Positions 4,849 through 14,768 of a DNA stretch of 42,369 nucleotides are shown here, one piece after another (position 1 is the stretch's first letter; the number at the start of each line of letters is the position of its first letter). The notes below the pieces were generated by a model, which saw nothing but the letters and a program-made list of their open reading frames with translations, ran no database searches and was not told where the DNA came from. The translations under genes were made by a program, and so were the position numbers. This stretch comes from Vulcanimicrobiia bacterium. GTDB taxonomy: Bacteria; Vulcanimicrobiota; Vulcanimicrobiia; Eremiobacterales; Eremiobacteraceae. The stretch spans positions 1 to 42,369 of the forward strand of contig JANWLL010000023.1 of the NCBI GenBank assembly GCA_025450855.1, read 5' to 3'.

Positions 4849-4872
4849 GCGGTCGAGCTCTAGCTCGACCGG
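4846..4872. repeat. Dispersed palindromic repeat, subtype A (GTAGCGGTCGAGCT-CT-AGCTCGACCG)
   Basis: Perfect 9-bp arms GGTCGAGCT/AGCTCGACC with 2-nt loop; related copies elsewhere in the window. Confidence 0.85.
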
Positions 4873-10482: not shown

Positions 10483-11882
10483 AGAGCGCCGCCGCAGCCA
10501 AGCGGACGTTCGTCGACGAGCTGCTCGACGTCTTGAGCAACGTGCTGTTCCCGGTCGTCGTATTCCTCATCTGGGCCGTGATGACGACGATCGGCACGAT
10601 CGTCGACCAGAACCAAGATCCGCAGCATTACTACGACATGTATCCGACCGCGGTCGCGAATCTCATCTTGCGGCTTCACCTCGACACCGTGCTCCATTCG
10701 ATCCCGTACTTCTCGCTCATCGTGCTCTTGCTCGTGTCGATGACCGTGTGCACGTTCAGGCGCGTCATCCCGAAGCGCTTCCCGAAGGACCGCGCGGTGA
10801 TGATCGAGGCGTTCGGCCTGCACGGAAGTGCGACGTCGCGCGCAGGCGATGCGACCGGCGAGCGCACCGAGCAGTTCTTGCGCAAGCGCCGGTTCGCGCT
10901 TCGGACGCTCGACGTCGACGGCACGCGCTGGCTCTTCGGAGACAAAGACAAGTGGGCGCGCTACGGCGTTCTCGTCGCACACCTCGGGTTCGCGATCATC
11001 GCGTTCGGCGTGTTCCTCGGCTGGCTCGCGGGCTTCAAAGGCGAGCTCCAGATCTTCGACGGCGCGACGGCCGCGGTCGCGCAGCAACCGGGCCTCGCCA
11101 TCCATCTCGACAAGTTCACCGCGACGTTCCAGCCCGTCGAGACGCCGAACGGCACGTTTTATCAAGCATCCAAGTTCGAGTCCGACGTCGGCGTCGTCGA
11201 AGACGGCACCGCGACGAAGACCGACATCATCGTCAACCATCCGTTCCAGACGAAGTCGGGCGTCTATTTCTATCAAGCGTCGTACGGCTTCGGCGGCCGC
11301 ATCGATCTGACGCGCAACGGCAAGCCCGTCAGCCTCTCGGGCGCGGGGCGGCTCATGCCTGGCGACCAGGTCTTCTTGCCGGGGACGAGCCGCGAGATCG
11401 ACTACGTCACGCTGCTCGGACCGTCGGATCCGTCGCAAGTGCCGATGGGCGTGCCGCTGCCGAAGACCGACGAGTACGCGATGTGGGTCATCCACGACAA
11501 CGTGCCGACGACGTCGCGGCCGCTTCTCGTCCCCATCGGAAAGACGATCGACGTCGGCGACGGCTATGCTTTGACCGCGCGCGCGCCGATCGCGTGGACA
11601 GGCTTGACGTACCGTCGCGATCCGGGCGAGGGCTTCGTCGGGCTCGGCGCGGCGGTGCTCGTCACCGGCTTCGTCATGGCGCTGTTCTTCGTTCCGGTCA
11701 AGCTCTACGTGCGTACGCGTCGCGACGCGCGTGGCCCGGTCGTCGACGTCGCCGCGACGACGACGAAGGGCAACACGATTTACGAGGGCGAATTCAAGCA
11801 GCTTCTCGACGGGCTCGGGCGGACGCTCGAGACCGGCGATAACGAACCCGCGCAGGATGCGGTGGAGACGGCGTATGCCTGA
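10479..11882 (+). CDS. resB: Cytochrome c biogenesis protein ResB/Ccs1
   Basis: GTG start overlapping tatC stop; ResB-like TM layout with large soluble domain, followed by ccsA-type gene. Confidence 0.88.
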   Translation: MKSAAAAKRTFVDELLDVLSNVLFPVVVFLIWAVMTTIGTIVDQNQDPQHYYDMYPTAVANLILRLHLDTVLHSIPYFSLIVLLLVSMTVCTFRRVIPKRFPKDRAVMIEAFGLHGSATSRAGDATGERTEQFLRKRRFALRTLDVDGTRWLFGDKDKWARYGVLVAHLGFAIIAFGVFLGWLAGFKGELQIFDGATAAVAQQPGLAIHLDKFTATFQPVETPNGTFYQASKFESDVGVVEDGTATKTDIIVNHPFQTKSGVYFYQASYGFGGRIDLTRNGKPVSLSGAGRLMPGDQVFLPGTSREIDYVTLLGPSDPSQVPMGVPLPKTDEYAMWVIHDNVPTTSRPLLVPIGKTIDVGDGYALTARAPIAWTGLTYRRDPGEGFVGLGAAVLVTGFVMALFFVPVKLYVRTRRDARGPVVDVAATTTKGNTIYEGEFKQLLDGLGRTLETGDNEPAQDAVETAYA

Positions 11883-12804
11883 TTACTCGCAATACAACAC
11901 GAACGCCCAAGCGCTCGCCGACGCGCACGTCGCGGCCTACATGGCTTGGTATCATGTCGCCATCGTCCTCTACGTGCTTGCTGCAGCCGTGTTTCTCGCG
12001 TACTGGTTCTTCCGCAATCGCCCGACCGCGGCGGGCGGCGCGATTCTAGCGACTGCCGGCCTTGGCTGCCAGATGGCTAGCCTCGGCATCCGCTGGGTGT
12101 ATAGCGGCCACGTGCCGTGGAACGACCTCTACGGCTCGTTGTCGGTCGTCGCGCTGCTCTCGGTCGCGCTCTTCCTCATCTTCGGGCTGCGCTACAAGAT
12201 CTGGTTCGCCGGACCGATCGTCCTCTCGGTCACCGATGCATTGCTCGCGTACGGCCAGGGGTGGAACAAGGGACTCGAGCCGCTCGTCCCTTCGCTCCAG
12301 AACAACTACTGGATCTACTACCACGTCCCCGTCGTGCTCGCCGCGTATGCGGCTTTCCTCATCGGATTCTCCACGAGCATCCTCTATCTATTGAAGAAGC
12401 ACGACGAAGACCGCGCGCTCGCCGGGGCCGGGAAGTCGGTCGGGGCCGCCGTCGCGGCCGTTCGCCCCGCGTGGCTCGATTGGCTCGATATCGTGCCGGC
12501 ATCGGGCGCGCTCGAGGTCATAACGTATCGCGTCATCGCAATCGGCGAGATCTTGCTGACCGTCGGCGTCATCCTCGGATCGCTTTGGGCGCACGACGCG
12601 TGGGGCAGCTACTGGCAGAACGACCCGAAAGAGCTCGCTGCTCTGACGTGCTGGATCTGGTACGCCGCCTACCTCCACCTGCACACGCGCCCGTCGTTCC
12701 GCGGCCCTCGCCTCGCGTGGATGTCGATCGCGGGCTTCGGCGTCGTGTTGTTCTGCTATTTCGGCGTCAACATCTGGATCAGCGGCCTCCACTCGTACAA
12801 ATAG
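11875..12804 (+). CDS. ccsA: Cytochrome c biogenesis protein CcsA/ResC-type heme handling protein
   Basis: WAHDAWGSYWQNDPKELAALTCWIWYAAYLHLH is the WWD-type heme-handling segment; polytopic; ATG overlaps resB stop. Confidence 0.92.
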   Translation: MPDYSQYNTNAQALADAHVAAYMAWYHVAIVLYVLAAAVFLAYWFFRNRPTAAGGAILATAGLGCQMASLGIRWVYSGHVPWNDLYGSLSVVALLSVALFLIFGLRYKIWFAGPIVLSVTDALLAYGQGWNKGLEPLVPSLQNNYWIYYHVPVVLAAYAAFLIGFSTSILYLLKKHDEDRALAGAGKSVGAAVAAVRPAWLDWLDIVPASGALEVITYRVIAIGEILLTVGVILGSLWAHDAWGSYWQNDPKELAALTCWIWYAAYLHLHTRPSFRGPRLAWMSIAGFGVVLFCYFGVNIWISGLHSYK

Positions 12805-12813
12805 ATCGCGGCA

Positions 12814-12935
12814 CGCACCTCGCGAGGGAGCCATCGCGGGGACGCGGCTCAAATCGGGGCAGACTATCTTTCGCCGCTCTGTTCGGCGCCTTTCGGCGCC
12901 TCACAAGGCCCGCTTGTGGCTCCCTCGCGAGTGCG
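12814..12935. repeat. ~122-bp element bounded by 19-20-bp terminal inverted repeats (IR1)
   Basis: Left CGCACCTCGCGAGGGAGCCA (12814-12833), right TGGCTCCCTCGCGAGTGCG (12917-12935): reverse complements apart from one missing base; inner hairpin CACAAG..CTTGTG. Confidence 0.8.
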
Positions 12936-12965
12936 TCGGCATCGCGCCTATCTGAGCGAGCGCAA

Positions 12966-13083
12966 GCCACGAGGGTGTCGCTCTAAGCGGGTGTTCTGAG
13001 ACGGCGAAAGCCGTCGAAGACAGCGGCGGAAGGCAAGCATTTCCCGAATCGCCGCGTGCCCGCGAGAGCGACACCCTCGTGGC
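12966..13083. repeat. ~118-bp element bounded by perfect 19-bp inverted repeats (IR2), structured-RNA-like interior
   Basis: GCCACGAGGGTGTCGCTCT (12966-12984) vs AGAGCGACACCCTCGTGGC (13065-13083); inner GACGGC-GAAA-GCCGTC hairpin (13000-13015), GCGGG/CCCGC and GCGGCG/CGCCGC pairings. Confidence 0.85.
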
Positions 13084-13094
13084 GAAGCGCGTCG

Positions 13095-14768
13095 TCAGCG
13101 AGGCGCGGTGGCGCGGTAGGTGACCAGCCAGAGGGTTGGAGTCTTTTCGATCAGCGCGAGCTTGACGCCGCGGTTCGTGAGATCGGTGTATGCATCCGGT
13201 GACACGACACACACGGCCGGTTGCGGCGTCGCGAAGTAGCGGCGCGGCGGGACGTCGTCGGTGTTATGTCCGACGCTCGTGATGGGCGGGCCGTTGGTGT
13301 AATAGTCGAGGGAAAAACCTTGATGGACGCCGTCGAAGCAGATGCGGTCGCCCGGATGCCACGAGCGCATGACGTCGCCGGCCATCGCCTTCATCGGCTT
13401 CGCGGTCGATTCGATCTGCGGGAGTATCGAGAAGGTGACGACGCCGATGAACGCGGCCATCATCGCCGACATGCCGATCGGCGCGATCCACGGCTTATCA
13501 AGTCGGATCGCGAGGAGGAACGTCAACAGCGCTATGGGCACGACGAGCCAGCCGAGCAGCGCGAGCGATGGAGCGAGTGTCACCATCAATCCGCTCGCGT
13601 GAGCGTGACCGTAGAAGTAGACGCCGGCGGCGAGGATTACAACTGCAGCGATCAGCGCGAAAAGCGCGCCGCGCAGCGGCCGCATCGACCGCTGCGCGAT
13701 CGCGTTCGCGATCGTCTCGCCGGTCATGATCGAAAGCGCGGGGAATGACGCTTCGATGTAGTTCGGCAGCTTCGTCTGCGCGACCGAGAAGAAGACGAAA
13801 GGCACGAGCGCCGCGGCGATGAGGAATTTGCCGTCGTCGTCGCCTGATCGCCACGCGCGCGCGACTGCTTGTGGTACGAACGCGATGAACGGGAAGAAGC
13901 CGACGATGAGGATCGGCACGTAATAGTAGATGGGGCCGGGTTGATTCTCGTACGGGGAAAGAAAACGGCTGACGTTCGAGAGCCCGAAGTACGCGTACAA
14001 GAAATGCGTTCCGCTGACGGCGGTCTCAGCTGCGAACCACGAACCGGCGATGACGACATACAACGCGACCGCGCCGAGCCATGGCAGACCTGCAAACGAC
14101 GTCCAGCGGCGCGCCCACGCGGCCCACGCGATGAGTGTAAGCCCGGGGAGGACGAGCGCGACAGGTCCTTTGATGAGCGTGCCGAGCGCGGTCGCGATCG
14201 CCGCGATCCACAACGCTTTGGGATCGCGATCGCGCAGTGCGAACCAGCCCCAGAAGGTCGCGACCGTCATCGCGCACACGAGCATCGTGTCTTGGATAGC
14301 CAAGCGCGACATGACGAGGAACTCGAGCCCGACCCCGAGCGCGAGCGCGGCGACGACGCCTACGGTCTCGCCGTAGAGCCTTCGCCCTGCGAGGTAGATC
14401 GCGTAGCCGCTCGCGACGCCGAAGACCGCCGAAGGAAGCCGAAGCGCGAATTCGGTGAGACCGAAGAGCTTCGCCGAAAGCGCCGCCGTCCAGAACCAAA
14501 GGGGGGGATGGACGTACCACGGCTGCAGATCTTTGTGAAGGGTGAGCCAGTCGCCCGACCTGAGCATCTCCTTCACGATCTCGCCGTACTGCGGCTCGCT
14601 GTTATCCCAGAGGCTGCCCGCGCCCAGCCGCACCGCGTAGAGCACGGCTAAAAAGACGAGCATCGCAAAGACGAAGAGTCGCGAGCGTCTGTCGGTCGGC
14701 GGCGCGTCTTGCTTCACGATGCGGGCTCTTGTCGACGGGACGGAGCGAAGTCCTTTCAGGAAGTTCAA
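13095..14768 (-). CDS. GT39/ArnT-like integral membrane glycosyltransferase
   Basis: LWDNSEPQYGEIVKEMLRSGDWLTLHKDLQPWYVHPPLWFW, PMT/ArnT-family N-terminal signature; >10 predicted TMs; exact start uncertain. Confidence 0.88.
   Translation of the reverse strand: MNFLKGLRSVPSTRARIVKQDAPPTDRRSRLFVFAMLVFLAVLYAVRLGAGSLWDNSEPQYGEIVKEMLRSGDWLTLHKDLQPWYVHPPLWFWTAALSAKLFGLTEFALRLPSAVFGVASGYAIYLAGRRLYGETVGVVAALALGVGLEFLVMSRLAIQDTMLVCAMTVATFWGWFALRDRDPKALWIAAIATALGTLIKGPVALVLPGLTLIAWAAWARRWTSFAGLPWLGAVALYVVIAGSWFAAETAVSGTHFLYAYFGLSNVSRFLSPYENQPGPIYYYVPILIVGFFPFIAFVPQAVARAWRSGDDDGKFLIAAALVPFVFFSVAQTKLPNYIEASFPALSIMTGETIANAIAQRSMRPLRGALFALIAAVVILAAGVYFYGHAHASGLMVTLAPSLALLGWLVVPIALLTFLLAIRLDKPWIAPIGMSAMMAAFIGVVTFSILPQIESTAKPMKAMAGDVMRSWHPGDRICFDGVHQGFSLDYYTNGPPITSVGHNTDDVPPRRYFATPQPAVCVVSPDAYTDLTNRGVKLALIEKTPTLWLVTYRATAPR

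Follow-up and report, generated by a model that had tools for sequence, protein, structure and literature searches.

The 118-bp hairpin found in the window (the whole stretch of 42,369 nucleotides analysed here) is one half of a composite unit and belongs to a new repeat family whose members are small, palindromic and RPE/ERIC/MITE-like in kind (PMC2229807, PMC10969869). Members of the family share a conserved fold, are paired head-to-head, lie preferentially between convergent genes, have inverted in place between species, and in some cases sit in frame within genes. We give about an even chance to the explanation we favour: a MITE/RPE-type palindromic repeat confined to one lineage, in which two related ~120-bp branched hairpins form a head-to-head dimer that acts at gene 3' ends regardless of its orientation.

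The element that a sequence-only reading of this DNA had described, copy B in Table 1, has exactly the extent and the perfect 19-bp inverted ends claimed for it: its outer arms, GCCACGAGGGTGTCGCTCT (12966-12984) and AGAGCGACACCCTCGTGGC (13065-13083), are 100% complementary. Its minimum-energy fold has -88.8 kcal/mol, compared with -50.6 +/- 3.8 for shuffled sequences (z = -10.05 on the + strand, with 0 of 200 shuffles as good), and the opposite strand folds with z = -9.0. The parts are an outer stem, an inner stem, a GNRA-capped hairpin with tandem GA, and a second hairpin, GCGGCGG...TCGCCGC. The fold contains the three further features that had been proposed, namely the GCGGG/CCCGC extension of the outer stem, the GACGGC-GAAA-GCCGTC hairpin with its GNRA loop, and the GCGGCG/CGCCGC stem. 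The distance of 11 bp to the stop of a GT39 gene is likewise accurate, as the PMT/GT39-like gene on the - strand ends at 13095. Absent from that reading were copy A, which has a palindromic outer stem of its own (CTCGCGAGGGAGCCA / TGGCTCCCTCGCGAG), and the other copies in the genome. A 48-nt segment is 79% complementary between copies A and B, and the pair occupies the gap between the convergent ccsA-like and PMT/GT39-like genes. Compared with the orthologous locus in a genus-mate, G001, the unit in the window is collinear (80.4% identity, vs 62.5% when inverted).

Table 1. Features of the composite unit and its locus in the window, and orthologous pairs of loci in which the unit is inverted relative to conserved flanks.
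Feature	Positions	Strand	Remarks
Left neighbour, ccsA-like cytochrome c assembly protein	11875..12804	+	Pfam PF01578, E 6.9e-43; converges on unit
Composite unit <A B>	12815..13083	none	Elsewhere, the orthologous whole unit occurs in either orientation
Copy A	12815..12935	-	Diverged head-to-head partner, same family; covariance model R2 97.5 bits, E 1.2e-19
A-B spacer	12936..12965	none	About 30 bp; other such pairs have 6-46 bp
Copy B	12966..13083	+	Element of the sequence-only reading; covariance model R2 126.5 bits, E 4.7e-26
Right neighbour, PMT_2-type glycosyltransferase (the GT39 gene of the sequence-only reading)	13095..14717	-	Pfam PF13231, E 1.2e-22; converges on unit
L117/L086			Inverted identity 93.9%, collinear 66.4%; clearest case
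L100/L121			Inverted identity 84.0, collinear 58.8
L090/L121			Inverted identity 80.2, collinear 58.1
L142/L083			Inverted identity 79.0, collinear 64.0
L102/L124 (inside imuB)			Inverted identity 67.7, collinear 53.8
L126/L146			Inverted identity 80.0, collinear 56.2
L125/L129			Inverted identity 72.2, collinear 52.6

A BLAST search with the 118-bp element found eight places in the window's genome. Covariance model R1, built from seven copies, found 12 there, including the - strand partner that adjoins copy B; 16 copies were found in the genus-mate. In all, the covariance models identify more than 80 copies, up to 29 per genome, spread over several genera, all within a single Candidatus Eremiobacterota family of uncultured bacteria from soil. 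Across 149 genomes of the phylum, models R1 and R2 found no copies outside this family, whether in the class or in the phylum at large. A search of GTDB genomes for the core pattern returned Eremiobacterota MAGs, two Rahnella contigs and one Planctomycetota contig; the covariance model rejects the Rahnella and Planctomycetota contigs, and with them a host range beyond Eremiobacterota. A phage origin was rejected because the core pattern had no match in viral contigs. Rfam gave no match, either for the whole window at the gathering threshold or for four copies with flanks at E <= 1. Modules of the family are branched and 118-125 bp long, and the nine close pairs of copies are all head-to-head (-/+). 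Genus g3 has a longer and diverged palindrome as the partner, at a distance of 35-60 bp, which a strict pattern detects beside 18 of 34 copies; judging from shared end motifs, we read this partner as a probable homolog of copy B.

The fold is conserved throughout. An alignment of 69 copies, fitted to the covariance model and biased in its favour, has 92% of its cells paired; both sides have changed in 39 of 40 pairs, and covariation scores 0.556, vs 0.132 for shuffled and no more than 0.064 for slid controls. All helices covary, the core includes a three-way junction, and 61 of the 69 copies have GAAA or GAGA as the hairpin loop. An independent seven-sequence MAFFT alignment gave the same covariation result, more weakly. 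Covarying homologues, which the sequence-only reading had suggested looking for, are thus abundant. Among aligned copies of the window's genome the interior is conserved, and the outer stems vary yet stay complementary. Comparison of orthologous sites, made with no RNA model, found 29 outer-stem pairs that had kept Watson-Crick pairing through changes in both partners, a threefold excess over the 9.8 expected from random partners, while half-changed pairs fell below expectation (35 vs 74). The compensated pairs were mostly isolated (18 of 22 runs had length 1), and therefore point to single events rather than tracts; compensation by wholesale template switches was rejected for this reason. The unit shows compensatory evolution and a conserved fold, and is best read as an old inherited palindrome. 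The base-pair evidence does not tell RNA from DNA as the folded molecule.

Many copies occupy orthologous sites between species, and some are probably held at such sites across genera. In seven of eleven orthologous comparisons the unit is inverted relative to its conserved flanks (Table 1), and the segments that align in inverted orientation stop at or near the unit ends. A bulged T in one arm makes the outer stem of L117/L086 asymmetric; this T flips together with the interior, which places the exchange breakpoints in the outer arms. Flips of a single hairpin fit recombination between its arms. Whole-dimer flips need another step, because no obvious likeness links the two ends of the unit; the dimers inverted in genus g3 lack evident inverted repeats that would match across these ends, and exchange between arms therefore cannot account for all flips. 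An alternative to inversion, that units inserted independently the other way round, is possible in g3, since the outer stems there are not copy-specific, and in L126/L146 and L125/L129, where they differ between species; the copy-specific stems of L117/L086 and L142/L083 argue against it. Misassembly or strain mixture at palindromes could also produce differences in orientation, because the genomes are assemblies, those of the family being MAGs where named.

Gain and loss are visible as well. Copies at two loci of the window's genome (L139:3778 and L140) correspond to empty sites in G001, and at two further sites, those of L143 and L087, the comparison shows decayed copies. No target duplication was found in two empty-site comparisons, where the intergenic flanks also differ.

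Some copies lie within genes. An ImuB-like IMS protein carries the repeat unit in frame in G003 and G012 (L102:3097-4857, L124:3398-5230). The unit stands in opposite orientations in these two related species, and the flip within the imuB reading frame leaves the frame open in both, giving two different linker sequences. The insert is absent in the relatives from other genera that were compared. In genus g4, MurF-like and F420-0:gamma-glutamyl ligase domains form one open reading frame in which they are joined through a copy of the element (L125:2704-4932, L129:3301-5553).

Covarying base pairs are usually taken to prove RNA function, and selection at the RNA level is expected to tolerate G.U and not A.C. 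The GNRA strand of each hairpin might be a structured non-coding RNA or an element of an mRNA 3' UTR under RNA-level selection, a reading that would account for the GNRA loop, the tandem GA, the three-way junction and the covariation of all helices, and that gains from an excess of G.T over A.C on the GNRA strand of the outer arms (25:6, p 0.0009). We consider it quite unlikely, however. The two intermediates are at parity in the inner helices of a sequence-only alignment (38:37) and at orthologous sites (29:28 in one count and 8:7 in another, for the outer stem), and G-T pairs make up only ~2% of the outer stem. The alignment fitted to the covariance model gives 56:16, and such an alignment leans towards G-U; strand assignment by this comparison depends on the alignment. 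Both orientations occur at one locus and also in tandem gene contexts (14 copies sense and 16 antisense, taken as equal), so that there is no fixed sense strand relative to genes. The lack of an Rfam match also tells against a structured RNA, as does the A-B spacer, in which conservation is not obvious by eye. Strong covariation here accompanies frequent inversion and, in most counts, equal G.T and A.C intermediates, and recombination or repair of palindromes could therefore yield the same signal; confirming or refuting that origin would sharpen the interpretation of covariation. A bidirectional intrinsic terminator for the two convergent genes, to which the very stable stems would be suited, is an explanation that draws on gene context, which was called with a simple self-trained gene finder. 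Convergent gaps make up 32 of 61 element-bearing gaps vs 19 of the 294 remaining gaps of those regions (Fisher p 5e-16), and divergent (promoter) gaps are avoided (2 of 61 vs 72 of 294). We nevertheless rejected a terminator as very improbable because the T-tract is missing: across 80 copies neither strand has a run rich in T after the stem, T standing at 0.05-0.24 per position, about the genomic level. Some copies, moreover, are inside translated genes, and the few copies per genome would, judging from copy number, leave most convergent pairs without one.

An orientation-free 3'-end role ranks first among the readings, and second comes a purely selfish palindrome of RPE/ERIC/MITE-like type, which is possible without being probable. 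Such a repeat would be moved in trans by a putative enzyme, its 3'-end sites would be tolerated insertions, and its palindromes would persist because extruded hairpins undergo recombination and mismatch repair, not because of a selected function. Dispersed copies, the in-frame copies in the ImuB-like protein and at the MurF-F420 ligase junction, empty and decayed sites, and the avoidance of promoter gaps all agree with this, and equal G.T and A.C half-changes at orthologous sites are as expected of a strand-symmetric DNA process. Yet the outer-arm sequence is unconserved, unlike transposase-recognised ends, the retention of so many copies at orthologous sites runs counter to a purely selfish repeat, conservation of the interior core (GNRA loop, tandem GA, AGCGGCG) exceeds what neutral old repeats should show, and there is no candidate enzyme. 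Under the favoured reading of an orientation-free 3'-end role, the dimer would have been passed down over long periods without changing place, in most cases where the 3' ends of convergent genes meet, and copies would be gained and lost slowly. Its hairpins may extrude in single-stranded DNA or on transcription; the unit would flip when a hairpin's two arms, or the unit ends, recombine with each other, and once a hairpin is extruded, mismatch repair or arm-to-arm conversion may help to maintain arm complementarity. As orientation does not matter, selection, if any, would keep an orientation-free structure at gene 3' ends, where candidate roles are the shielding of mRNA 3' ends or a lessening of interference between converging transcripts. 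The conserved core on the GNRA strand may serve sequence-specific recognition alongside the 3'-end structure. Against the favoured reading, a pure 3'-UTR role does not agree with the compensated stems that the intragenic copies of L125/L129 and L102/L124 keep. A bolder version is rather doubtful: that the unit inverts in place faster than sister species diverge, as a perfect, freely evolving palindrome that acts as an orientation-independent 3'-end element and swaps the imuB linker between reading directions. The family provides dated orthologous loci at which the flipping and survival of short bacterial palindromes can be studied, including in a coding gene.

Known small palindromic repeats or MITEs include RPE (Rickettsia palindromic elements), ERIC, Correia/NEMIS and RUP (PMC2229807, PMC10969869), and inversion has been reported for Correia elements (PMC10969869). 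The present repeats likewise measure 100-150 bp, form a long stem-loop, are dispersed, encode no transposase and have some in-frame genic copies; the likeness to RPE, as a dispersed palindromic repeat of this length with copies in frame, is one of description. They are set apart by the branched core with its GNRA-capped hairpin, by obligate head-to-head pairing with a related partner, by terminal arms that drift between copies yet stay compensated, with no target duplication seen in the two empty-site comparisons, and by the frequency of in-place inversion, at 7 of 11 orthologous comparisons. The suggestion of a 'small structured RNA or MITE' thus holds in part: covarying homologues, a conserved fold and a dispersed, MITE-like repeat are all present, but the element is half of a two-hairpin unit, and no conserved terminal sequence, transposase partner or target duplication was found. 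Nor was there identity to a known IS-derived MITE. The conserved terminal inverted repeats of an IS-derived MITE were not seen: the outer arms vary freely from one copy to the next, although each copy remains palindromic, and genome searches found no longer element (autonomous transposon) that shares the outer ends. CIR repeats of Caulobacter and Brucella, which have a GANTC motif in the loop (PMC2229807), resemble the unit in being intergenic and in having two long hairpin arms with a linker; by description they differ, as the arms here are homologous inverted modules with another conserved core.

The organisation in dimers and the placement are REP-like (PMC3733652), without REP tags, ends or transposase. 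REPs are 20-40 bp long with a GTAG or CGTC tag, and RAYT genes go with the GTAG type (PMC3733652, PMC3116915). These repeats (REP/BIME/REPIN) also form head-to-head dimers, prefer convergent or unidirectional gaps and have some intragenic copies, whereas the modules here are branched and ~120 bp, not short tagged palindromes. Y1_Tnp (RAYT) genes occur in 10 of 14 genomes of the family. A RAYT-mobilised REP was rejected because the four Y1_Tnp loci examined have another kind of palindrome, a short one, at their flanks; no 118-bp element was found near them at E <= 1. These loci, L194, L195, L196 and L197 (G000:C39, G003:C26, G001:C25 and G010:C109), hold small Y1_Tnp (RAYT-like) genes with ~24-bp genome-specific palindromes on both sides: GCGGTCGAGNTNNANCTCGACCGC in G000 and G001, preceded by GTAG in G001, GGGGCCGAGTTTATCTCGGCCC in G003 and GTAGGAGGGCAAGCATCGCTTGCCCT in G010. 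In appearance these are classical REP/RAYT systems, separate from the 118-bp repeat. Two repeat copies, L144 (G000:C30:15591-15649) and L210 (G000:C52), are truncated beside short REP palindromes of the RAYT-associated type, perhaps by the adjoining palindromes themselves. The window also has six copies of a short REP-like palindrome, GCGGTCGANNTNNANNTCGACCGC, at 4849, 22537, 30081, 30688, 30727 and 33435, where 0.01 would be expected.
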